From Limnochordales bacterium (GTDB lineage Bacteria > Bacillota > Limnochordia > Limnochordales > DUMU01), in assembly GCA_014896315.1 (NCBI GenBank), contig JADBKP010000001.1:457557-521556 (forward strand): 64,000 nucleotides of DNA. Direction: 5' to 3'. Positions within the stretch are counted from its first letter, which is position 1. Each line of letters opens with the position of its first letter. The notes under the pieces were generated by a model. The model ran no database searches. It saw only the letters and a list, made by a program, of their open reading frames with translations, and was not told the DNA's origin. Position numbers and translations under genes: made by a program. Below, in pieces: positions 50,262-63,991 of the stretch.

Positions 50262-51659
50262 TCAGGCCGAAACCTGGTCCCGGCAAACGGGTTGCTTTGT
50301 GGGTTGGCCCGCCGGTTGTTGGGCCTGGCGGCGACGAAGCTCTGCCTTACCCTGCCGCAGGTACTGGACGAGAGGCCGCCGGCTCGGGCAGATATAAGCA
50401 CATGCTCCGCACTCCACGCAGTCGAGCAGCCCGTTTGTGGCAGCCTCCGTCACCATCCCGGCCGCCACCAGCTGGGTGAGCCGGACGGGGGCCAGCCCCT
50501 GGGGGCAGACTTCCAGGCAGCGCCCGCAGCGTACACAGGGAAGCGATTCTGCCAAAGTCTCCTGCTCCGCAGTGAAAGCCAGAAGACCGCTGCAGCCTTT
50601 GAGGATTGGTAACTCGAGGGAAGAAGTTGCGAGTCCCATCATCGGACCGCCCATGATGACCTTGCGGACCGGGGCTTCCTTGAGCCCTGCCTGGCGCAGG
50701 ACCTCGCCGATGGGTGTACCGATGGCGACCCAAAAGTTGCCCGGCTCACGGACCGCATCGCCTGCTACCGTAACGATCCGTTCCAGAAGCGGTTCACTAT
50801 GGAGAAGAGCACGTCCCAGAGCTGCGGCCGTTCCGACGTTGTGAACCACCACGCCTACGTCCGCAGGAAGTCCGCAGCTTGGCACCTGCCTGCCGGTCAG
50901 GGTGCGAGTCAGCGTGCGCTCGGCACCCTGGGGGTAACGGCTGGGAAGCACACGCAGTGAGAACCCGGGCAGCTCCCGAATCATATGGCTGATGAGTTCA
51001 ATGGCGTCGGGTTTGTTGTCTTCGATCGCAATTACGACGTTGTTGACGCCGAGGGCACGGCGCATTGCCCGGGCGCCCCACAGGACGAGATGAGGTTCTT
51101 CCACCATAAGGCGGTGGTCACAGGTAAGATAAGGTTCGCACTCGCAGCCGTTCAAGATCAGCAGATCAGGGCGGGGGTCACTGCGCGGAGTGAGCTTGAT
51201 ATGGGTGGGGAAGAGGCCGCCGCCCAGGCCAACGAGTCCGGCCTCCAGAGCCAGACGGCGAATGCCGGCCGGGTCCATCGCTTCCGGCATGCTGGTATCG
51301 CCCAGGTACGACCGATCGAGGGGCAGGAACGAGTCTCCACCGTCATTCTCGATGATCACCGTCGGCACCAGTTGGCCCGAGGGGTGCGGGTACGGCTCGA
51401 CAGCCACGACGCGTCCGCAGATGGGCGAGTGGACCGGCGCACCTAGCCCGGACGGTTCACCGACGACTTGACCCCTGATCACTCGGTCACCCTTCCGGAC
51501 AGTGGGGGTGCACGGGGTTCCGGCATGCTGCAACAGGGACAGGTAAACCTTATCGGGGGCAGGGAGTCTGCGGCTGGGTTTGCCCGCGGTGATCCTCTTC
51601 TCCTCGGGTGGTCGCACACCCCGACCCCGGAAGTGCTCAAGAATGGCTAGAGAGAGCAT
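50262..51659 (-). CDS. rnfC: Rnf complex subunit RnfC, intact second copy
   Basis: The cytoplasmic NADH-side subunit of the ferredoxin:NAD+ oxidoreductase Rnf, 465 residues. It keeps the N-terminal barrel-sandwich part (VYLSLLQHAGTPCTPTVRKG), the glycine-rich nucleotide/flavin loop GLGGGLFPTHIKL (residues 144-156) followed by LILNGCECEPYLTCD, the SLBB region, and two [4Fe-4S] motifs, CVRCGRCLEVCP and CVECGACAYICP. The start follows AAGGGGTG. It is the last gene of the rnf-apbE row, about 195 bases behind the Gx-NusG fusion; the gap could hold a separate promoter. It is distinct from the divergent RnfC-like protein that opens the operon. Confidence 0.9.
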   Translation of the reverse strand: MLSLAILEHFRGRGVRPPEEKRITAGKPSRRLPAPDKVYLSLLQHAGTPCTPTVRKGDRVIRGQVVGEPSGLGAPVHSPICGRVVAVEPYPHPSGQLVPTVIIENDGGDSFLPLDRSYLGDTSMPEAMDPAGIRRLALEAGLVGLGGGLFPTHIKLTPRSDPRPDLLILNGCECEPYLTCDHRLMVEEPHLVLWGARAMRRALGVNNVVIAIEDNKPDAIELISHMIRELPGFSLRVLPSRYPQGAERTLTRTLTGRQVPSCGLPADVGVVVHNVGTAAALGRALLHSEPLLERIVTVAGDAVREPGNFWVAIGTPIGEVLRQAGLKEAPVRKVIMGGPMMGLATSSLELPILKGCSGLLAFTAEQETLAESLPCVRCGRCLEVCPQGLAPVRLTQLVAAGMVTEAATNGLLDCVECGACAYICPSRRPLVQYLRQGKAELRRRQAQQPAGQPTKQPVCRDQVSA

Positions 51660-51854: not shown

Positions 51855-52964
51855 CTAGCGGCTCATGATGTCGTACTGGGGTGTGGCTGCCCCCCTTACG
51901 GTGACAACGGTCTGCAAGGGCACGCAGACAATGGCCTGGGCCGGATTGTTGATCCAACCGGTGCGTACGCAGATCCTGTCGGGACAGGTCGATTCCCTTA
52001 CCCGGATCTTGCCCGGGGCCACCTCGAGTACCATTCTCCCCCCGGGGAGCTCCAGGGGTATTACCTGCTCCCGGTCTAGCGGCACAACCACCCGTACTAC
52101 TCCGGCTACCCTGACGACGCCTTCCGGGTTCAGGGGAGGTGCGGCCGTGCCTTGCTGCCAGAAAAAGGCCACCAGTGCTGCCAGGAAAAGGGCGGCTGCC
52201 GCGGCGCTGTCACCGGTCTGGAGCTTGAGATGCAGCCCCAACCGCCGAGCCAACCCGCTGCGAATGCCATAAAGAGCGCTCAAGACTCCCGGGATCACCT
52301 TTTCCATGTTCCTGTTCCCGGCAGGCGCCGGTCCGGCAGTTCGGGCGGCGGTTCCGGCGAGACTGTGATTGCAGGAGGCGAGGTAAGGCAGCAGATAAGC
52401 CCCTGCCACTCCGACCAGCGTTCCCGTGGGCAGTGAGAACCAGAGAAGATAGGGCAAGTAGGCCAGGATAGCCCACTCACCGGTGAAGAGCCGGGCGACC
52501 ATGAGCTGGGCCACGTTATGGGTGGCCGCCCCCACAATACTGACCCCGGCAGGTGAAATCCGGCGACCGCCAAGGCAGGCCGCTGCTCTCATTGTGACCA
52601 CGCTGGCTATTCCCCCAGCCAGGCCGAAGAAAAACGGAGCCGAGAGAAAAGTTCCGGTTGCCAGCGACCCCAGCAGCTGGCGGGCAACGACAAGCATCAT
52701 CGCCTCCCGCCAGCCCCAGGCCAGGACGGCGAGCAGGGAGACCAGGTTGGCCAGCCCCAGCTTTGCCCCGGGAAGGGGAAGGGACGGCAGCAGACTTTCA
52801 AATACGTAAAGGGTGATGGCGATGGCAAGCAGTACGCCAAGCTGGGCTACCTTCCGCCCCGGCTGGGTGCGGGGGGGAAACCGAGCGCCGGCTGCGTCCG
52901 CGGTGGCAGTTGCGGTTGCGGCTGCAGTTGCGCTTGCTGCCGGCGACGGTTGTACCATTACCAC
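51855..52964 (-). CDS. Fusion of a Gx-type membrane transporter and a NusG-domain-II protein
   Basis: A 369-residue protein. After a low-complexity Ala/Thr stretch, residues about 35-215 form a multi-helix membrane domain of the Gx transporter/HepST component I type (LPLPGAKLGLANLVSLLAVL, then ATHNVAQLMVARL). A linker leads to a single helix and an extracytoplasmic NusG domain II, with the signature STCPDRICVRTGWINNPAQA and IVCVPLQTVVTV. In many Firmicutes these are two adjacent genes near apbE. As I recall, they correspond to the EetB- and EetA-like genes of Gram-positive extracellular electron transfer. Here they are one frame. It starts three bases after apbE. Confidence 0.8.
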   Translation of the reverse strand: MVMVQPSPAASATAAATATATADAAGARFPPRTQPGRKVAQLGVLLAIAITLYVFESLLPSLPLPGAKLGLANLVSLLAVLAWGWREAMMLVVARQLLGSLATGTFLSAPFFFGLAGGIASVVTMRAAACLGGRRISPAGVSIVGAATHNVAQLMVARLFTGEWAILAYLPYLLWFSLPTGTLVGVAGAYLLPYLASCNHSLAGTAARTAGPAPAGNRNMEKVIPGVLSALYGIRSGLARRLGLHLKLQTGDSAAAAALFLAALVAFFWQQGTAAPPLNPEGVVRVAGVVRVVVPLDREQVIPLELPGGRMVLEVAPGKIRVRESTCPDRICVRTGWINNPAQAIVCVPLQTVVTVRGAATPQYDIMSR

Positions 52965-52967
52965 CGC

Positions 52968-54233
52968 TCACTCCTCCTCCCCGCCTGCGGGCGTGGTCCC
53001 GGAGTCCAGACGCCCTCGTCCGACCACTTCTACCTTACCGGCCAGGCCCGAGGTTATGCGGACGGAGAAGTCGGGAAGGACCACTATCCCCTCCACGTCC
53101 GGCAACGATTCCAGGAGCGCGAGACCCCTGTCGCGGCCGAGGACGAAGGCTGCGGTGGACAGAGCATCTCCCAGAGCTCCGTCCGGGGTGATCACCGTCA
53201 CGCTGAGAACATCCCGGGCCGGCCAGCCGGTATGCGGATCGAGGAGGTGACTGTAGCGGACGCCGTCATACTCAAAATACCGCTCGTAATCGCCGGAGGT
53301 GGACAGAGCTGCATCGGTGACGGGAACGACGGCGATGATGCCACCTGGATCACGGGGGTCTTGGATCCCCACTCTCCATGGTGAACCGTCAGCCTTGGTA
53401 CCCAGGGCATAGATGTTCCCTCCCAGGTCGACCAGGGCGCGGATAACCCCGTGCTGCCGGAGAATGCGGGCCACCTGGTGCACCCCGTAACCCTTGGCAA
53501 TCCCGCCCAGGTCGAGAGCCTGCCCCGGCCTGTGCAGGCGCACGCGCCCGCCTGCTTCATCGATCTCCACGTCCTTGTACGAGACGAGTGGCAGGAGCTG
53601 GGCTATGCTGGCGGCCGCCGGAGGTTTGTGACCCCGAATGTGGGTCGGCCCGACCTTTCCCACTCCTTCGTGGGAGGCAGCCTCCTGGCCACCGTCGGAT
53701 TCAGGGCCAGATTCGCCGGCCGCTTCGACGAAGCCCCACAGGTCTACCAGCGGGGCGATGGTGGGATCGAAAGCTCCGCCGCTCTTTTCGGCAACCTGAC
53801 GGGCGGTTTGCAGCATGGAGATGATGTCGGGAGAGACCTCAACCCAGGATTGGTCTCCCGCATGGCTGTTGATGAGAGATACCTGGCTGTCTGGTCGGAA
53901 CCGATCTACGATGGCGGAGAGCCGGTCCAGCTCCCGCAGCGCAGCCTGGAGCGCTCTCTCGGCCTGTTCTTGGGAGGCGGCTTCGGCCTTTATCTGAACG
54001 TAAGTACCCATGGTGAAGGCGATGGCTTCGGCCGCTGCATCGCCAGCCTCACCAACGGTGGCAAAGACAGCTCCCGGCTGCGGGTCGGCGACAGAAGCAG
54101 TCCGGGGCGAAGCGTCCTTACAGCCGCCGGCTGCTGCTGTGAGTGGCAGCAGCGCGGCGAGAAGGAGGGGACGCATGCTCTTCAGGTTGGCGATGGAACG
54201 CAGGCGCGTGCAGATTGTCGTAAAGCTCACCAC
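52968..54233 (-). CDS. apbE: FAD:protein FMN transferase (ApbE)
   Basis: Attaches FMN from FAD covalently to Thr/Ser in the motif D-x-x-[ST]-G-A-T of exported flavoproteins. The 421-residue product has a signal sequence ending in a possible lipobox (LTAAAGGC), so it is probably a lipoprotein on the outer face of the membrane. Family motifs are AFTMGTYVQIKA, GGAFDPTIAPLVDLWGF, QALDLGGIAKGYGVHQVARI, LVDLGGNIYALG and DAALSTSGDYERYFEYDGV followed by SHLLDPHTGWPA. A hydrophilic insert of about 45 residues lies after LWGF. Its likely targets, RnfG and RnfD, are encoded just upstream. The start is uncertain (GTG at 54233 or the internal ATG of MRPLLL). Confidence 0.92.
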   Translation of the reverse strand: MVSFTTICTRLRSIANLKSMRPLLLAALLPLTAAAGGCKDASPRTASVADPQPGAVFATVGEAGDAAAEAIAFTMGTYVQIKAEAASQEQAERALQAALRELDRLSAIVDRFRPDSQVSLINSHAGDQSWVEVSPDIISMLQTARQVAEKSGGAFDPTIAPLVDLWGFVEAAGESGPESDGGQEAASHEGVGKVGPTHIRGHKPPAAASIAQLLPLVSYKDVEIDEAGGRVRLHRPGQALDLGGIAKGYGVHQVARILRQHGVIRALVDLGGNIYALGTKADGSPWRVGIQDPRDPGGIIAVVPVTDAALSTSGDYERYFEYDGVRYSHLLDPHTGWPARDVLSVTVITPDGALGDALSTAAFVLGRDRGLALLESLPDVEGIVVLPDFSVRITSGLAGKVEVVGRGRLDSGTTPAGGEEE

Positions 54234-54289: not shown

Positions 54290-55126
54290 TCAGGAGGCAG
54301 CCGCGGCGGCAGCCGGCTCTCTGCCCTCCTGAACCTGCCATTCAATTACGTGTGTCGGACACTTGGCCGCACACTTACCGCAAGCGGTGCAAAGCTCCGC
54401 GTTAACCACGGCCAGGTTGTCGATTACGTGAATCGCATCGTATTCGCAGGTGCGCTCGCATATGTTGCAGGCGATGCATCCACCCTGGCAGACCTGGCGT
54501 ACCAGCTTGCCGGGGGCAGGTGAAACGCAGTTCACAAAGGTACGCTGGTCGTAGTCTACCAGCTTGATTATCCCCCGCGGGCAGACCTGCACACACAGGC
54601 CGCATCCGGTGCACTTCTCTTTGTCAACTATAGGTAGTCCCTCTGACCCCAAGGTGAGGGCGCCGAAGGGGCAGGCTGCCACACAGGTGCCCAGGCCGAG
54701 ACAGCCGTAGGTGCAGGCCTTGCCACCGCCGCTGACCAGCTCCGCCGCCCGGCAATCCGCAAGCCCCCGATACTCCCCCGTCCGTTTGGCCAGAGCGTGC
54801 GTGCCATTGCAGAAGACATGGGCGACCTGGCGCTTAACCGACGGCACCGAAACTCCCAGAAGCTCGGCCACCCGAGCCGCTACCGCCGGCCCGCCCGCCT
54901 TGCAGCCGTCAGCCGGGGCCTTTCCCTCTACCGCAGCCCGGGCAAAACCGGAGCAGCCGCTGAAACCGCAGGCACCGCAGTTAGCCTGCGGAAGGAGGTT
55001 TGCCAGCAGCTCTACCCGGGGATCTTCCTGTACAGCGAAGCGGCGGGAGGCCCAGACGAGAAGCAGGGCAGAGAGTATCGCCACGACACCCATGGAAAGC
55101 GTCGCAGCCATGATTGAGCTTAGCAT
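54290..55126 (-). CDS. rnfB: Rnf complex subunit RnfB
   Basis: Accepts electrons from reduced ferredoxin and passes them into Rnf. The 278-residue protein has one N-terminal membrane helix, the RnfB-type cluster CGACGFSGCSGFA, and four further cysteine motifs: CLGLGTCVAACP, CTGCGLCVQVCP, CIACNICERTC and CTACGKCAAKCP. The C terminus ends in a run of alanines. I chose the ATG at 55126, six bases behind GAGGTG; a GTG inside that site would also be in frame. It follows rnfA on the same strand. Confidence 0.95.
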   Translation of the reverse strand: MLSSIMAATLSMGVVAILSALLLVWASRRFAVQEDPRVELLANLLPQANCGACGFSGCSGFARAAVEGKAPADGCKAGGPAVAARVAELLGVSVPSVKRQVAHVFCNGTHALAKRTGEYRGLADCRAAELVSGGGKACTYGCLGLGTCVAACPFGALTLGSEGLPIVDKEKCTGCGLCVQVCPRGIIKLVDYDQRTFVNCVSPAPGKLVRQVCQGGCIACNICERTCEYDAIHVIDNLAVVNAELCTACGKCAAKCPTHVIEWQVQEGREPAAAAAAS

Positions 55127-55194
55127 ACTTTTCACCTCGCATAGGAAACGAGTAACTCATATTCCGGCACGTTGGGACTGCTGCCGTGGTCATG

Positions 55195-55785
55195 TTATAA
55201 TGCCGGAACGACCCCGCTGAAGCCGATAAATGTCAGGCTCATGATGGCAGCGATCAAAAGCGAAAGTGCCGACCCCTGAAGGCTTGGGGGAACATCGGCG
55301 AACTCTAGCTCTTCCCTCAGGCCCGCCATGAGCACAATGGCCAGAGTCCAGCCAATGCCGGAGCCGATTGCAAAGACCACCGTTTCCAGCAGTCCGTAGT
55401 CGCTTCCGGCCACAAGCAACGCGACACCCAGAATTGCGCAGTTGGTGGTGATCAACGGTAGATAGATGCCGAACGCCTCATACAAGGCTGGGCTGTAGCG
55501 CCGGATCACCATCTCGAGGAACTGGACCAGCGTTGCAATAACGAGGATGAAGATTAGGTTCTGCAAGAACGGCAGATTAAATGGTTCGAGGATGTAGTTC
55601 TGAATGGCCCAGCTAAGCGTCCCGGAGATGGTCATAACGAAGACGACCGCTGCTCCCATTCCCAGGGCAGTGCTCAGGCGGTTGCTTACCCCAAGGAAGG
55701 CGCAGATGCCCAGGAACCGGCTGAGTATGAAGTTGTTGATCAATGCCGCTCCGACAAAGAGCAGGACCAGATCCCCGAAATCCAA
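55195..55785 (-). CDS. rnfA: Rnf complex subunit RnfA
   Basis: An integral membrane subunit of 196 residues with six helices. Two symmetry-related half-helices carry conserved cysteines: SRFLGICAFLGVSNRLSTA and LPLITTNCAILGVALL; in Rnf and Nqr these coordinate the intramembrane iron site with RnfE. The start is a TTG at 55785 after AAGGACTG. It lies between rnfE and rnfB. Confidence 0.95.
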   Translation of the reverse strand: MDFGDLVLLFVGAALINNFILSRFLGICAFLGVSNRLSTALGMGAAVVFVMTISGTLSWAIQNYILEPFNLPFLQNLIFILVIATLVQFLEMVIRRYSPALYEAFGIYLPLITTNCAILGVALLVAGSDYGLLETVVFAIGSGIGWTLAIVLMAGLREELEFADVPPSLQGSALSLLIAAIMSLTFIGFSGVVPAL

Positions 55786-55881: not shown

Positions 55882-56622
55882 TCAGCTGGCGCTTGCCCCC
55901 GGAGCGGCTCCCAGCGGTGCGGATGGTGAACGCGGTCGGGCCGCCATCCGGAGCTGCCGTTCCCTGGCCAGCCGGCTACCCAGGTTGAAGAGACCGACGA
56001 TCATACCCATGGTCAGGAACGCCCCCGGCGGCTGCAGCATGACCTGCCAGGTCACGAAGCCGTCCGGCATGAGGCGAAGTCCGAGAATCGTTCCGTTACC
56101 GAGCAGTTCACGAACTATACCGATCATCACCAGGGAGATGGTGTAGCCGATACCATAACCCAATCCGTCGGCGAAAGCACGATCCACGGGCACGTGAGCG
56201 GCCCAGGCTTCCGCACGTCCGAGAATGATGCAGTTCACTACGATAAGCGGTACGAACAGACCGAGAACCTGGTGCACATTGGGAACGGTAGCCGCCAGTA
56301 CGAGGTCGGCGATGGTTACGAAGGTGGCGATGAAGATGGTGTATACCGGGATGCGAACCTCGCGAGGAATCTGCCGGCGCATGAGTGAGACCATCACGTT
56401 CGTCCCAACCAGAACGAAGATGACGGCCGCTCCCATGGCGAGGCCGTTGACAACGGCAGTAGTAACGGCCAGAGCCGGACAGAAGGCAATCATCAGACGG
56501 AAAGGAGAGCTTTCCGTCCAGACCCCCCGCAGGATGTCCTGCCACAAAGTTTGCCACCGTGAGGCTGCTGGCCGGCGGGCTCCCTGGGCCCGTTTATCCA
56601 TCTCTGTCGTGCAGCACTCCAT
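55882..56622 (-). CDS. rnfE: Rnf complex subunit RnfE
   Basis: The second six-helix membrane subunit, homologous to RnfA, 246 residues. Conserved parts are SPFRLMIAFCPALAVTTAVV and LFVPLIVVNCIILGRAEAWA, each with the cysteine expected at the intramembrane iron centre. I chose the ATG at 56622, preceded by GAGGGGAG; upstream in-frame sequence is not conserved in type. The C terminus has a polar tail (MAARPRSPSAPLGAAPGAS) longer than usual. Confidence 0.93.
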   Translation of the reverse strand: MECCTTEMDKRAQGARRPAASRWQTLWQDILRGVWTESSPFRLMIAFCPALAVTTAVVNGLAMGAAVIFVLVGTNVMVSLMRRQIPREVRIPVYTIFIATFVTIADLVLAATVPNVHQVLGLFVPLIVVNCIILGRAEAWAAHVPVDRAFADGLGYGIGYTISLVMIGIVRELLGNGTILGLRLMPDGFVTWQVMLQPPGAFLTMGMIVGLFNLGSRLARERQLRMAARPRSPSAPLGAAPGASAS

Positions 56623-56709
56623 GACTTCAGCACTCCCCTCGTATCGGTTGGCCGGGCGCACCGGCCGGATGGAAGGAGCTCGGCCGGTGCGCGGACATGA
56701 CCAAGACAT

Positions 56710-57780
56710 TCACTCAACAAGTCCCGCCGCCCGGGCAGCAGCAATGCCGTATCGCACCGCTTCCGCCACAGCCTTGGAAGAGAGTGTCGCGCCGGTGATG
56801 CCGTCAATGTCATCACCGACCTCGAAGCGGGACTCAATGCTCATGCCTTTGAACTGTTCCTGGAAACCGGCATCGGTGGCGATCTTGTCGCCCAGGTCGG
56901 GGGTCTCCTGCTGATGGAAGACACGAACGCTGACCAGGGTGCGGTTGCCCGGATCGATAATCCCGAGGACTTCCACCGGACCTTCGACGCCATCGGCGCT
57001 GGCGCGGAAGCCGACCGCACCGGTCTCACCTGTGGACGTCACACCGACAAAGACCTCAGGATCGGTCTTTGCGCCTTCCACGGGCGTCGTCCCCATGGAC
57101 ATGAACATTGCTGCGTCAAACCCTGCCGCCATGGCCATACTCACCAGGGCCTCGGCAGGATCTTCGGGCAAGTCAGGTAGGGCGGAAGCAGCCTCTTCCT
57201 CTGTTGTAGAAGCCGCAGCCATTTGCACGGGTTGGCCCATGCGCTCCATTGCACTCTGGATGCCGGTACGGATTATCTCCACTGCGGCCCTGGAGGAGAT
57301 GGTGGCACCCGTTATACCATCGATGTCCTGATTCAACTGGTAAGGATCGGTCAACGGTTTCATAACGAACTGGTCGGTGAAGACCGGTTCCTGGATTTTC
57401 GTCCCAAGGCCGGGTGTTTCGGACATTTGCAGAACTCTTACGCCAGCAAGGGCGCTGCGATCAGCGGTGATACCCAAAGCCATCTTGATTGGGCCACCGA
57501 AACCTTCGCCGACCGCCTTGAAGGCGTACCCGAGAAGCCGTCCGTCCGCCGCCAGCACCCGGTAGATGGCGTCATCGGATTCGGGGGAAGTGGCGGGTAC
57601 CTCGATCTCGAAATTGGCGGCTTCAGGGAAAATGCCCTTGAACCCCACTTCCAGATCGGCCTTGGTCCGGTTGGCCTCGATGATTGGATTGAGCCAGGAG
57701 TAGAAGCCGGCCAGCACGCCACCGGAAAGGGTCGAAACGAGAGCGAGCACCAGAATCATCCGCCAGGTGGAACTACGCAC
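56710..57780 (-). CDS. rnfG: Rnf complex subunit RnfG with duplicated FMN-binding domain
   Basis: Carries covalent FMN on the outer face of the membrane. Normal RnfG is about 190-210 residues; this one has 356. One membrane helix (MILVLALVSTLSGGVLAGFY) is followed by two FMN-binding domains, with flavinylation motifs DGITGATISS (about residue 157) and DGITGATLSS (about 327). Each is preceded by a PGLG/PDLG-type segment (SETPGLGTKIQEP and QETPDLGDKIATD). An acidic, Ala/Met-rich linker joins them. The GTG at 57780 overlaps the rnfD stop and follows GAGGAGG. ApbE in the same operon should flavinylate both domains. Confidence 0.92.
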   Translation of the reverse strand: MRSSTWRMILVLALVSTLSGGVLAGFYSWLNPIIEANRTKADLEVGFKGIFPEAANFEIEVPATSPESDDAIYRVLAADGRLLGYAFKAVGEGFGGPIKMALGITADRSALAGVRVLQMSETPGLGTKIQEPVFTDQFVMKPLTDPYQLNQDIDGITGATISSRAAVEIIRTGIQSAMERMGQPVQMAAASTTEEEAASALPDLPEDPAEALVSMAMAAGFDAAMFMSMGTTPVEGAKTDPEVFVGVTSTGETGAVGFRASADGVEGPVEVLGIIDPGNRTLVSVRVFHQQETPDLGDKIATDAGFQEQFKGMSIESRFEVGDDIDGITGATLSSKAVAEAVRYGIAAARAAGLVE

Positions 57781-58768
57781 GAGCGGAAACCTCCTCACTT
57801 ACGTCGCTTGCGCGGATCGGGCGCGGCAGCGTGTAGCGGTTGATGAGCGGGGTGCACATATTCATGAAGAGAATGGCAAACGACACGCCCTCGGGATAAG
57901 AGCCCCAGAGGCGGATAACCATGGTGATCAGCCCTATCCCGACGGCGTAGATCCAGCTTCCGAGCCGGGTGAGCGGACTTGTCACCCAGTCCGTGGCCAT
58001 GTAGAAAGCCCCGAGAATCAAACCGCCGGAAAGAAGATGAAAGAGTGGATCCTGCCCCGCAGCCCAGGCGAAGATGGCTACAGTTGCCAGTATTCCAAAC
58101 GGAATACGCCAATTGATGATGCGGAAGGCGATGAGGATCAGACCACCCAGGAGGAGTGCGACCGCTGCAGTCTCCCCCAGGGCCCCGGCACGATAACCTG
58201 CCAGCAGCTCAAGGTAGGATGGCACGGTCTGACCCTGTGCCACGGCCGCGAGCGGTGTGGCCGTGGTCACGGTGTCTACCATGCGCACGCTACCACTGAA
58301 GTCGGAGAGCAGCTGCGGAAAAGTGACCAGGAGAAAAACCCGGCCCACCAGCGCGGGGTTAAAAACGTTGTGCCCCAAGCCTCCGAAAGCCTGCTTGCCC
58401 AGGAGAATTGCAACGGTGGAACCGAGCGCCGCCACCCACAGCGGGGTGGAAGCTGGCAGGGTTAACGCCAGAAGCAGCCCGGTCAGGATCGCGCTTCCGT
58501 CCTTCAGGCTTCGCCATGGCGAACGCCGCCGGGCCCACTGGGCTACTCCTTCCGCGATCAAGGCAGAGACCACCGATGTCAGAACGATAGGGAGGACACG
58601 CCAGCCGAAGATGTACACGGAGACGCCGGCAACCGGCAGTAGGGTGGCCAGCACTGTGTACATAGCCCGTTCGGCTGTCAGGGGCGAGTGTATATGTGGT
58701 GAACTGGAGAGGACGAGCAGCGGTGGCTCGGTCCCCCTGGTTTGTGAACTGGTAGTTGTCACGCTCAT
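57773..58768 (-). CDS. rnfD: Rnf complex subunit RnfD
   Basis: An integral membrane subunit of 331 residues that carries covalent FMN and probably part of the ion channel. Family features: SPHIHSPLTAERAMYTVLAT at the start, LPASTPLWVAALGSTVAILL, KQAFGGLGHNVFNPALVGRV, and YMATDWVTSPLTRLGSWIYA. The FMN site reads DTVTTATPLA, so the usual glycine before AT is a threonine. ATG at 58768 after a GAGGT site. Downstream rnfG overlaps its stop codon. Confidence 0.95.
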   Translation of the reverse strand: MSVTTTSSQTRGTEPPLLVLSSSPHIHSPLTAERAMYTVLATLLPVAGVSVYIFGWRVLPIVLTSVVSALIAEGVAQWARRRSPWRSLKDGSAILTGLLLALTLPASTPLWVAALGSTVAILLGKQAFGGLGHNVFNPALVGRVFLLVTFPQLLSDFSGSVRMVDTVTTATPLAAVAQGQTVPSYLELLAGYRAGALGETAAVALLLGGLILIAFRIINWRIPFGILATVAIFAWAAGQDPLFHLLSGGLILGAFYMATDWVTSPLTRLGSWIYAVGIGLITMVIRLWGSYPEGVSFAILFMNMCTPLINRYTLPRPIRASDVSEEVSARA

Positions 58769-58781
58769 TGACAGGGATACC

Positions 58782-60245
58782 TCACTTCACAAGCTCCAGC
58801 TGAAGCTGGGCGAGCTGGATCAGCTGCACCAGCGGCCGACCGGCCGGACAAACGTACGCGCAGGCACCGCAGCCAAGGCAGCGCTCTGCGCCGGCAGAAG
58901 CAGCTTCACCCCACAGGCTCTTCTGAGCGAGGCGAGCGATGGTGGTCGGGGAGAGGCCCGCCGGGCAAGCATCCAGGCACCTGCCGCAGCGCAGGCAGAG
59001 CCCTGCATCGCTGGCCCGTTGCCCAGCAGACGTAAAGGCGAGGAAGCCGATGTCGTCAATTCCCACTATCGCGTCGCCCAGGGTGATGGCCTGCCCTGCC
59101 AGACATCCCCCGCGGATGAGCAGACGCAGGGAGCTCAGATTGAGACCCGCCAACTCCAGTAAAGCCGCAAGCGGAGTTCCTACCGGCACACGGTATACTC
59201 CGGGGCGGCTCACCGCATCGCCGTCGACAGAGACTATGGTCTCTGCAGGCGGGCGATGGTGGTGTAACGCGTAACCCAGTGCTGCGACCCGCTCCACCCC
59301 CACCACGGTCACTCCATCCTGGCAGTAAACTGCCGGTGAACTGGTGGTCGGGAGCAAGCTTCTGCGGCTGCCCGCGTTGTGACAGCGGTTCGGTTTCTTT
59401 CCCGTGAGGCGACTGACCAGCATCTCGGGTCTACCCGCAGGGTAGCCGGCAGGTACGAGGAGGAGCTCCAGCGGAGCAGCATCATGCCTTAACGATTCCA
59501 GCTCTGCCGCGGTCAGCTGACCGCGGGTTACGGCCAGATAGGCGTGACGGGCTCCCACATGGCTGGCCAGGGCGGTAGCGCCGCTTGCTAAATCGGCCAG
59601 TCTTTCCCGCAGCAGGCAACGACGACCGTACACGCCCACATCCGGGTCGCAGCCGTTTACCACCAGCCAGTCAGTATTCCGAAATAGCGCCAGGTCGAGC
59701 CCGGCATAAGCGGCTGCCAGCTGCAGGCGGGACTCTTCTGAGGAGGGGAGCTCACGCACCTCTACCGCCTCCTGCTCCTGGGCCGGCGCGGTCGGAGATA
59801 TGGCGATCACAGGCACAAACTCGCCACTCCCGCCAGGCCGGTGACTGATATCGACCACCTTTCCGGCCACGGGGGAGAAGAGGTGCACCGTTCCATAGCG
59901 ACCTTTTGCTGCAGCAATTACCGGACCGGCGGCCGGCCGGCCCGCCGTACTCAAGGCAGCTTGTATGGAGGACCTCTGGCTTGCTTGACTTGCTCTGCCA
60001 CCTTGCGAAACCAGAGGTGCCTCAGCCGAGTCCAGGTTCGGTGGAGCGGCCAGCACCGAGCCTACCTTTACTTCTTCGCCCCTCTTTACCTGTGGAGTAA
60101 GCGGGTTTCCCTGCCAGTCCTGACAAGGGAAAAGAAGGGGGGTTGCAGGTTGGAAGACCTGACTGGAGCGCCAATTGGCACGGGATCGCAACCCGATTTC
60201 CGGTATATGGCGAGGCGCAACCCGCCCTTGCCATAGCCAGGGCAT
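58782..60245 (-). CDS. Divergent RnfC-like protein lacking the glycine-rich nucleotide motif
   Basis: Occupies the position of rnfC in the operon, 13 bases before rnfD. The 487-residue product keeps the RnfC outline: the N-terminal sandwich (TPQVKRGEEVKVGSVLAAPP), the VVNGCDPD segment that follows the nucleotide site, the SLBB part (YRVPVGTPLAALLELAGLNL) and two cluster motifs, CLRCGRCLDACP and CLGCGACAYVCP. The stretch that should read GxGGGxFPTHxKL is instead YAGLDLALFRNTD, so NADH/FMN binding is unlikely. The ATG at 60245 follows GGAGGG. It may be a structural electron-wire subunit; an intact RnfC lies at 50.3-51.7 kb. Confidence 0.85.
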   Translation of the reverse strand: MPWLWQGRVAPRHIPEIGLRSRANWRSSQVFQPATPLLFPCQDWQGNPLTPQVKRGEEVKVGSVLAAPPNLDSAEAPLVSQGGRASQASQRSSIQAALSTAGRPAAGPVIAAAKGRYGTVHLFSPVAGKVVDISHRPGGSGEFVPVIAISPTAPAQEQEAVEVRELPSSEESRLQLAAAYAGLDLALFRNTDWLVVNGCDPDVGVYGRRCLLRERLADLASGATALASHVGARHAYLAVTRGQLTAAELESLRHDAAPLELLLVPAGYPAGRPEMLVSRLTGKKPNRCHNAGSRRSLLPTTSSPAVYCQDGVTVVGVERVAALGYALHHHRPPAETIVSVDGDAVSRPGVYRVPVGTPLAALLELAGLNLSSLRLLIRGGCLAGQAITLGDAIVGIDDIGFLAFTSAGQRASDAGLCLRCGRCLDACPAGLSPTTIARLAQKSLWGEAASAGAERCLGCGACAYVCPAGRPLVQLIQLAQLQLELVK

Positions 60246-60289
60246 CGTATGTCCCTCCGCTTCCACCCCAAGGATTAGCCGACCCGGAT

Positions 60290-60365: not shown

Positions 60366-61100
60366 CTACTGCCGCTGGGCTGCCTTGAGGGCAGCGATGA
60401 CCGCTTCCTTATACATTTCACCGCTATGGGTTGCCTTGGCCACGACGTCGATTTTCTCGATCTCCTCTGGGCTACTCTTGCCGATGAACCGCTTTTGCAT
60501 GATGTCACGGGCTTCTACGGCGATCTTGTAGGAGTAGTTCTTCCAGTCCTTGAATTCGCCCGTCTTTGTCACTTCTTCCAGCCTCACGCTGGTAATCTTA
60601 TCGTTCTTGATGGTGACCCAGGCCACGGCGTAACCGTGTTCGCCGGCGGAGCTCTTGCCGAAGAAGGTCCCGTCAAAATACTTGTTCTTGGATTCCGGGA
60701 CCAACCGGGCCTTGCTCAGGGCACGTTCCACAGCCTGGATCCACTTCTTGGAGCTGTGGGTGGCCTTAGCGTAGATGTCCACTTTAGTACCGTTCACAGC
60801 TACAAACTGCTTTGTCAGCTGGTTCCGGGCATCTTTGACAGGCTGCCAGGTATAGGTGTTGTAGTCCTTGGGTACGCCTTTCTCAGTTACTTCTGATAGC
60901 ACCACGGAGACGATCTTGTCGTCCTTGATATTCACCGTGGCCATACCGTAGCCGTGATCATCGGCGTCGGAGATACCGACGTAGATTCCATCTTTATAGA
61001 TCTTGCCCGCAGTCCTACCAATCAAAGGCATAGCGATGCCCACAATCAGGACTGCAACTGCTGCCAAGCCTAGTACCCGCCATTTAGAAAACCGCTTCAT
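60366..61100 (-). CDS. Secreted protein with two FMN-binding-type domains
   Basis: A 244-residue exported protein: an N-terminal helix (VLGLAAVAVLIVGIAMPLIG) and then two copies of the same ~105-residue domain (KDGIYVGISDADDHGYGMAT and FDGTFFGKSSAGEHGYAVAW). Each copy ends in the position of the flavinylation motif: DIYAKATHSS (Thr114) and DVVAKATHSG (Thr224), exactly 110 residues apart. The usual [ST]-G-A-T reads A-K-A-T, so covalent FMN is plausible but not certain. The architecture recalls PplA of Listeria. It has its own promoter, a leader of about 225 bases and a terminator, just upstream of the rnf operon with ApbE. Confidence 0.82.
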   Translation of the reverse strand: MKRFSKWRVLGLAAVAVLIVGIAMPLIGRTAGKIYKDGIYVGISDADDHGYGMATVNIKDDKIVSVVLSEVTEKGVPKDYNTYTWQPVKDARNQLTKQFVAVNGTKVDIYAKATHSSKKWIQAVERALSKARLVPESKNKYFDGTFFGKSSAGEHGYAVAWVTIKNDKITSVRLEEVTKTGEFKDWKNYSYKIAVEARDIMQKRFIGKSSPEEIEKIDVVAKATHSGEMYKEAVIAALKAAQRQ

Positions 61101-61359: not shown

Positions 61360-61663
61360 CCAGAGAACGTCCCCGTTAGAAGATCGTGGCTTATTGGTCG
61401 GAAGGCTGGCGGAAGCTCCACAATTGCCGGAATCGCCTTGATAGATCCTGGTGATTCTGTTCTCTTATCAGTTTTCCCGGTCAGGTCGCCTGCGGCAGGA
61501 TACGAGAATAAGAGAGAGAATGTGATGATACGGGCGGGCCGTATGGCGACCACCCTGGGACTCCTGGCGCCCGCACTCCGCGCAGGTAAAGGCAGGTAAG
61601 ATCGGATGGGAAGAAGCGAACGCAATCGCATGTTTGAGCAGACAGCGGGATCGAGGTGTCTGT
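61360..61663. other. Upstream region of the pyrophosphatase gene
   Basis: About 300 bases between the divergent promoter and hppA. No gene or terminator is visible. TTGATA near 61438 could be a -35, without a convincing -10. Confidence 0.35.
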
Positions 61664-63991
61664 ATGCCTAGAAAAGATAGCAGTTGGCTGGGGCGGATCG
61701 CCCCCATCGGCGTTGCTGCTCTCCTGGTGGGTTTGATGGTCCTCGCCGCCTCGGGGGTAGTCCTGACGGTGTCTGCCGAAAGTGTGACTACCGAGGTCAT
61801 CGGTGAGGTAGTAAGAGAGGTGACCGACGGTTCGGCGACCGTGGCTACCGGCGAGGCGAGCGGGGATGAGGCAGCAGCCGAATCAACCGCACATGAAGAG
61901 GATCTGCCCTCTGGGACAAATGGTGAGACAGCAGTAGCAGAGTCCGAGGCAAGCGCCGGCAGAAAGGCCGCGTTCTGGACTCTGGGAGCCGGAGTTCTGG
62001 CGCTGCTCTACGCCTTCTACCTCTTTGGCCGTATCAGTCGTGCCGATGCCGGCAGCGACCGGATGAAGGAGATCTCGGCGGCCATCCACGAAGGTGCCAT
62101 GGCCTTTCTCACTCGTGAGTACCGCACTCTGGTGCTCTTCGTTATTGGATTGGCAGCCCTGATCTTCATCGTAGGTCGCTTTACACCCAAGGAAGCAATG
62201 CAGCCGGTCACTGCCGTTCCGTTTGTGGTGGGAGCGCTCTGCTCCGTGTTGGCGGGCTTCTTCGGCATGCAGGCTGCCACCCGCGCCAATGTCCGGACCG
62301 CGAGTGCTGCTCGCAAGGGACTGAATCAGGCGCTCGGGATTGCTTTCGCCGGCGGGTCGATCATGGGCATGGCGGTGGTCGGGCTCGGCCTGGTAGGCCT
62401 CGGCTTGATGTACATCCTGTTTGCTGATCCCGCTGACCCCATCACGTTCCAGATCATCAACGGGTTCGGGCTGGGCGCAAGTAGCATCGCCCTTTTCGCC
62501 CGTGTGGGCGGTGGTATCTACACCAAAGCGGCAGACGTAGGTGCGGACCTGGTCGGCAAGGTGGAGGCAGGAATTCCGGAAGACGACCCCCGCAACCCGG
62601 CGGTCATTGCTGACAACGTAGGGGACAACGTGGGGGACGTCGCCGGAATGGGGGCCGACCTCTTCGAATCCTACGTGGGTTCAATAATCGCCACCATGGC
62701 CATCGGTTCAAACATGATTCTGGACGGTACCGGTACCGTCGGCCATATTACTCTGCCGCTTCTGATTGCCGCGGTAGGGACGGTGGCTTCTATTGTTGCT
62801 TCCTTCTTCGTCAGGACCGGTGAGGGGGCAAACCCCCGTCTTGCGCTCCGCAACGGGACTTTTGGCTCCGCGATTTTGGTCCTGATCGCATCGTACTTCT
62901 TAACCCGCAGCACCATGCCGGACGGCGGTTTGGGCATCTTTGGCGCCGTGGCTGTCGGGACAGTAGTGGGGATGATCATTGGGATCTTGACGGAGTACTA
63001 CACCTCGGCCGACTACCAGCCGGTGCGCCGGGTGGCGGAAGCTGCCCAAACCGGGACGGCTACCAATATCATCGAAGGGTTGGCCCTGGGTATGGGCAGT
63101 ACGGCAGCGCCGATCGTACTGATCGGAGTTGCCATCTGGCTCTCATACGTCTGGGCCGGTCTATACGGCATCGCGATTGCTGCCGTCGGCATGCTGGCCA
63201 CTACGGGCATGACAGTCTCGGTGGACGCCTACGGTCCGGTAGCAGATAATGCTGGCGGCATCGCCGAGATGGCGGGTCTTGATAAGAGCGTGCGGCAGAT
63301 AACGGATAAGCTGGATTCGGTCGGCAACACCACTGCGGCTATGGGGAAGGGGTTTGCGATTGGTTCGGCGGCCCTGACGGCCCTGGCCCTCTTCTCGGCG
63401 TATGCGCAGACTGCGGATCTGGAAAGCATCGACCTGTTGAACTCGCGGGTCATTGTCGGGCTCTTCCTGGGGGGTGTACTGCCCTTCTTGTTCGCTTCGC
63501 TGGCGATGCGAGCTGTCGGGCGGGCCGCTCACCAGATGATCGAAGAGGTCCGGCGTCAATTCCGGGAGATCGCGGGACTGATGGAGGGCAAAGCTCGGCC
63601 CGATTACGCCCGGTGTGTTTCTATCAGCACTTCAGCGGCGCTGCGGGAGATGATCATTCCTGGCCTGATGGCGGTGGTCGTGCCGCTGCTGGTGGGGATC
63701 CTCTTGGGCCGGGAGGCGCTGGGAGGGCTGCTGGCCGGGGCGAACATAACCGGTGTACTCCTTGCCATCCTGATGGCCAATGCTGGCGGCGCGTGGGATA
63801 ACGCCAAGAAGTATATTGAGGAAGGGAACCTCGGTGGCAAGGGAACACCCGTCCATGCGGCGGCGGTAGTGGGCGACACGGTGGGCGATCCCTTCAAAGA
63901 TACTGCCGGTCCGTCCATGAACATCCTCATCAAACTGATGGCCATTGTCGCGCTGGTCTTTGCGCCGCTCTTCAGCTGGCTGGCCATCTGA
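61664..63991 (+). CDS. hppA: Membrane-bound ion-pumping pyrophosphatase with N-terminal extension
   Basis: Couples hydrolysis of pyrophosphate to export of H+ or Na+. The 775-residue product has the usual 16-helix core. The catalytic loop is [20 protein letters not shown] followed by [20 protein letters not shown]; further sites are [20 protein letters not shown], and [20 protein letters not shown] at the end. [16 protein letters not shown] has alanine where K+-independent enzymes have lysine, which predicts K+ dependence. H+ versus Na+ cannot be settled here. The N terminus carries an extra hydrophobic segment ([20 protein letters not shown]) and an acidic Ala/Glu/Ser linker of about 65 residues before the normal start. 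The ATG at 61664 follows GAGGTG. Confidence 0.95.

Follow-up and report, generated by a model that had tools for sequence, protein, structure and literature searches.

The Rnf complex is a main ion pump of anaerobes, and the electrons that pass through it normally go back to NAD. A single RnfG subunit that appears to carry two FMN-binding domains raises two questions: whether the second domain is a genuine flavin carrier, and where its electrons would go. Such an RnfG is encoded in the stretch of Limnochordales DNA analysed here (64,000 nt, hereafter the window), within a complete rnf operon that occupies 61100 to 50262 of the minus strand, with all of its subunits adjacent (Table 1). The original prediction had described an ORF of 356 residues at 56710-57780. 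Its coordinates and length were correct; the strand, which had been left unstated, is minus. The gene has a GTG start at 57780, 9 nt after a GGAGG sequence, which gives the 356 residues, whilst the longest ORF starts at 57798 and encodes 362 aa; RnfG residue numbers given here follow this longest ORF.

Membership of the RnfG family was clear from several features. The protein scored 157 bits against TIGR01947 (RnfG), above the curated cut-off of 102, the operon encodes RnfA, B, C, D and E, and the sequence has an N-terminal membrane helix and two DGITGAT motifs. The helix occupies the same N-terminal position as the TM helix of RnfG/NqrC (PMC12174285). Beside the operon, a large ORF on the plus strand (61634-63991) resembles, by eye, a membrane ion-pumping pyrophosphatase. 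Within the operon, the Hpre_diP_synt_I/NusG_II gene adjoins apbE, and a homologue does so in many of the relatives examined.

Table 1. Positions of the rnf operon genes and rnfG subfeatures in the window, followed by fused RnfD ORFs in other genomes
Feature	Position	Strand	Basis
PplA-like membrane-anchored protein, two FMN_bind domains, AKAT in place of [ST]GAT	60366..61100	-	Profile matches
Second rnfC (RnfC'), in the usual rnfC place; FMN/NADH loop missing, both 4Fe-4S motifs kept	58782..60266	-	Profiles and alignment
rnfD, FMN-Thr motif TTATPL	57773..58768	-	Profiles and alignment
rnfG, tandem FMN_bind, 356 aa	56710..57780	-	Profile matches, structure model, start site
RnfG N-terminal membrane-helix region, single anchor	57697..57777	-	Sequence and predicted helix 8-56
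RnfG FMN_bind domain 1, ordinary RnfG position; ETPGLG, Lys, DGITGAT	57241..57567	-	Profile and structure-sequence matches
RnfG ApbE motif 1, DGITGATISS	57292..57321	-	FMN-linking Thr codon 57301-57303
RnfG linker, low-confidence stretch (residues 196-205, 362-aa numbering) and one helix	57067..57240	-	Structure model
RnfG FMN_bind domain 2; ETPDLG, Met at the Lys place, DGITGAT	56728..57066	-	Profile, alignment, fold of the half alone
RnfG ApbE motif 2, DGITGATLSS	56776..56805	-	FMN-linking Thr codon 56785-56787
rnfE, true start possibly downstream of the longest-ORF start	55882..56709	-	Profiles
rnfA	55195..55785	-	Profiles
rnfB, ferredoxin-side Fe-S subunit	54290..55135	-	Profiles
apbE, flavin transferase	52968..54233	-	PF02424, E 9e-91
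Hpre_diP_synt_I and NusG_II fusion ORF, operon membrane protein	51855..52964	-	Profiles
Canonical rnfC, FMN/NADH loop GLGGGLFPTHIKL intact	50262..51659	-	TIGR01945, 501 bits
RnfD-RnfG fusion ORF, L043	9682-11565		
RnfD-RnfG fusion ORF, L044	9697-11907		
RnfD-RnfG fusion ORF, L045	7745-10270		
RnfD-RnfG fusion ORF, L046	4340-6166		
RnfD-RnfG fusion ORF, L047	2990-4609		
RnfD-RnfG fusion ORF, L048	1015-2790		
RnfD-multi-FMN_bind ORF, L170	5069-8935		
RnfD-multi-FMN_bind ORF, L171	4106-6094		
RnfD-multi-FMN_bind ORF, L172	2-2569		
RnfD-multi-FMN_bind ORF, L174	4458-6506		

The central claim of the original prediction, that one RnfG contains two FMN_bind domains, was borne out by profile searches and by comparison of the halves. 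PF04205 (FMN_bind) matched the protein twice, with a whole-protein E value of 3e-32, and in a six-frame search of the 2.59 Mb genome the halves were matched separately (E 1.2e-16 and 1.9e-14). Half 1 and half 2 are 40 % identical over 92 residues, with an E value of 1e-19 in a single pairwise comparison, a similarity that excludes chance. Both predicted ApbE motifs are present, one per domain. The further claims that each domain has its own PGLG-like segment and that both sites are perfect ApbE targets held in part: the two motifs are perfect matches to D-x-x-[S/T]-G-A-T and the segment of half 1 is ETPGLG, but that of half 2, ETPDLG, is only an approximate counterpart, and the domain 2 pocket combines this PDLG with Met for Lys.

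Structure prediction was consistent with two domains of the same type. The AlphaFold model of RnfG (eight sequences) had a mean pLDDT of 81 and an identical succession of strands and helices in the two halves, with a low-confidence linker and an uncertain mutual placement of the halves (whole-model pTM 0.46). The best structural matches of the model were the RnfG proteins of C. tetanomorphum, A. woodii and A. vinelandii, and solved RnfG structures were also matched by the sequence of each half alone, with best E values of 1.7e-11 and 2.6e-6 for halves 1 and 2, respectively. When half 2 was folded alone (pTM 0.82), its only convincing PDB matches were RnfG/NqrC chains (Foldseek probability 1.00, TMq up to 0.61). 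A structure prediction in which just one half folds as an FMN-binding domain, which had been named as the outcome that would refute the claim, was not obtained, and a misfolded remnant was rejected on the separate fold of half 2. Taken together, a predicted architecture of two folded RnfG-type domains with two ApbE motifs is supported by the sequence, by the modelled structures, by its conservation across eight genomes and by the apbE gene of the operon.

Meheust et al. (2021, eLife 10:e66878; PMC8238504) reported 'multi-flavinylated RnfGs', and proposed that they provide a second route to extracytosolic acceptors. Tandem RnfG has already been reported in kind, and the window RnfG is a solid further example from an added lineage. 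Like the proteins of that study, the window RnfG belongs to an Rnf cluster and has more than one FMN-binding domain, and it fits their definition in having a D-x-x-[S/T]-G-A-[S/T] site in each domain, as not all of its relatives do. Unlike their modelled example, a multi-heme RnfG of Christensenellales, it is without CxxCH; a multi-heme RnfG was rejected more widely, as no CxxCH was present in any RnfG or RnfD-RnfG ORF examined. The window protein shares with single-domain RnfG (7zc6, 9eri and 8ahx) and NqrC an N-terminal membrane helix, a linker helix, FMN_bind, an ETPGLG pocket and the Thr motif, but it has two FMN domains where the solved proteins have one. Several linker-joined FMN_bind domains are also found in SaFMN3 and CbFMN4, multi-FMN proteins purified by Tong et al. 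in 2023 (PMC10339131) and flavinylated by ApbE, and RnfG domain 2 matched domain 1 of CbFMN4 (PDB 8p2b, E 3e-6). SaFMN3 and CbFMN4 are, however, secreted proteins that lack the RnfG anchor and whose flavin content has been measured.

A search for other tandem RnfGs, suggested in the original prediction, recovered them both within the class and in other phyla. A full tandem RnfG was found in 8/73 surveyed genomes of the class, distributed over four families (f1, f3, f6 and f10); the remaining genomes had a single-domain RnfG, an RnfD-RnfG fusion or no rnfG that we could detect. The domain 2s of all eight tandem genomes formed one group in the tree, apart from the domain 1s (85/86 support), a grouping that is no longer resolved once more distant sequences enter the tree. 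This pattern suggests that one old duplication within the class lies behind the eight proteins. Recent internal copying was rejected on two counts: the halves are just 40 % identical, and the grouping of the domain 2s spans four families. In families f4 and f12, the fused RnfGs with one domain nested near the tandem domains, and are perhaps the product of domain loss.

RnfGs with two or three domains also occur in other Bacillota (G187, G153, G180, G104 and G450), in Latescibacterota, in a Tissierellia MAG and in Rikenellaceae. The domains of the Rikenellaceae, Tissierellia, Latescibacterota and G450 proteins grouped within their own protein in the tree, and several tandem origins are therefore likely. 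A single origin of all tandem RnfGs was unsupported, as these four self-pair and the domain has too few residues to place the others. One RnfG-like ORF of Latescibacterota (L104, 667 aa) has three complete FMN_bind domains plus part of a fourth.

The conservation of the flavin sites bears on whether domain 2 could instead be a folded relic, or a structural or docking module, with little or no flavinylation of its own, so that domain 1 alone has FMN. The PDLG and Met of the window pocket point in this direction. At the Lys-aligned position, half 1 and most relatives have Lys; judging from the distance between K and T, which is 18 in NqrC and 19 in the window protein, and from the 7zc6 alignment, we infer that this position is the probable equivalent of NqrC K207, which is said to contact the FMN phosphate (PMC12174285). 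The motif Gly, too, is less well kept in domain 2 (4/8, with Met or Arg in the other four) than in domain 1 (6/8, with Ala in two), and its loss may lower flavinylation of domain 2 in those four genomes. In one fumarate reductase a Gly-to-Ala change alone gave approximately 50 % flavinylation, and Asp-to-Ala had little effect (PMC12052999). It should be noted that the RnfD motifs of the same operon set are often without Gly (TTATPL, STATPL and TAATPL), such that the ApbE of these bacteria may tolerate change at this residue. Against the relic or docking module stand the domain 2 motif, intact in the window, both f1 relatives and G004, the linking Thr, which together with the preceding Ala is invariant in 16/16 domains of the eight tandem RnfGs, and purifying selection on domain 2 in family f1 (dN/dS about 0.09-0.26, with dS near saturation). 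We rank this explanation last of the three that were weighed, and consider it doubtful.

The most likely of the three, to which we give an even chance, is that domain 2 provides an additional electron outlet outside the cytoplasm. Domain 1 would do the ordinary job, its FMN swinging from the RnfA/E iron-sulfur centre to the RnfD FMN and back, whilst domain 2, on the same single anchor, would carry a second covalent FMN. The latter would accept electrons from domain 1 and deliver them to a partner on the extracytoplasmic side, for which the double-FMN_bind, PplA-like product of the operon's head gene is a plausible candidate. The ferredoxin-to-NAD route would thereby gain an outlet or branch. 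FMN on both domains and an outward extension of the electron path, as the original prediction envisaged, are what we infer, and the same role was proposed for multi-flavinylated RnfGs by Meheust et al. in 2021 (PMC8238504). Limnochordia are reported to be diderm (PMC11456536), in which case the space outside the membrane would be the periplasm.

In favour of the outlet we weighed the two domains and their predicted folds, the invariant Thr, purifying selection, the operon ApbE and the PplA-like protein, which is present at the operon head in 6/8 tandem genomes. PplA itself is an extracytosolic lipoprotein of Gram-positive extracellular electron transfer and, like the window protein at 60366-61100, has two FMN_bind domains. 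The window protein matched PplA with an E value of 2e-9, but at 37 bits against a cut-off of 325 bits; unlike PplA it has AKAT motifs and is without a lipobox, and it is not an RnfG. In the relatives of this protein, one of the two motifs reads GAT or GST. These imperfect window motifs were counted against the outlet, together with the domain 2 pocket (PDLG and Met), the loss of the motif Gly in 4/8, the uncertain placement of the halves and the two f3 tandem genomes, in which no PplA-like protein was found. Furthermore, the window keeps an intact RnfC and the RnfD FMN-Thr, and the ordinary route therefore needs no outlet.

This last observation, that electrons can return to NAD through an intact RnfD FMN-Thr and a canonical RnfC, is also in favour of domain 2 as a second shuttle arm in the ordinary Rnf cycle. 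Two FMNs sharing one anchor would then relay electrons across the ~35 Å gap between RnfA/E and RnfD, or would store a second electron, with no outward branch. Both the gap and the requirement for RnfG to swing are documented (PMC12174285), and the f3 tandem RnfGs without a PplA-like neighbour agree with such a role. However, known Rnf and Nqr complexes work with a single-domain RnfG, and domain 2, in contrast to an essential part of the core cycle, evolves faster than domain 1, with more frequent loss of its motif Gly. We rank the shuttle arm second; it is possible, but on balance unlikely.

The outlet also has to be seen beside the RnfC subunits of these bacteria. Family f1 has two rnfC genes, of which the copy in the usual place is without the Nuo51-type FMN/NADH loop GLGGGLFPTHIKL and the canonical copy lies downstream. 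In the window RnfC' (58782-60266) the GxGGxxFP (GLGGxxFP) loop was absent from the alignment and both CxxCxxCxxxCP motifs were present. RnfC' scored 161 bits against TIGR01945, below the cut-off of 246, and 34 bits against PF01512, compared with 133-164 in intact copies, and is under purifying selection. The same loop-less second rnfC was present in both f1 relatives (L036, 11434-12942; L037, 6703-8091). In families f3 (L038 and L039) and f4 (L043-L046), three genomes of which are single-contig, the sole RnfC found is degenerate at the FMN/NADH loop, with PF01512 scores of 73-74 bits in f3 and 22-29 in the two f4 copies scanned. It may be that Rnf in these f3 and f4 genomes does not react with NAD.

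In families f4 and f12, rnfD and rnfG form one ORF (Table 1), and the f4 fusions have lost the RnfD FMN-Thr motif (xATPL). Searches of titles and abstracts, which do not imply absence from the literature, found no report of an NADH-loop-less RnfC beside an intact one, nor of an RnfD-RnfG fusion. Karnachuk et al. (PMC11456536) gave the genes of two Limnochordales isolates as rnfCDEAB, with no G; should these isolates belong to f4, a fused rnfDG would agree with that list. The RnfC change and the RnfD-RnfG fusions are parts that a specialist may not expect. A broader but improbable proposal is that Rnf in this order no longer serves as a ferredoxin:NAD pump but as an outward electron line, the window encoding a hybrid able to use either the NAD-reducing RnfC or the NADH-blind RnfC'. 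If this were true, the NADH/FMN site would have disappeared from the RnfC in the usual place, RnfG would have acquired domains or been fused to RnfD, and ferredoxin electrons would exit via extracytoplasmic flavins. A natural RnfG with two covalent-flavin domains, found together with a PplA-like protein and with an RnfC that has no NADH site, would be a good system in which to test whether Rnf can also feed acceptors outside the membrane.

Finally, other families have a second Rnf-like cluster, which in L170 contained no recognizable rnfB within the stretch examined, and in which rnfC precedes an RnfD fused to three to five FMN_bind domains.
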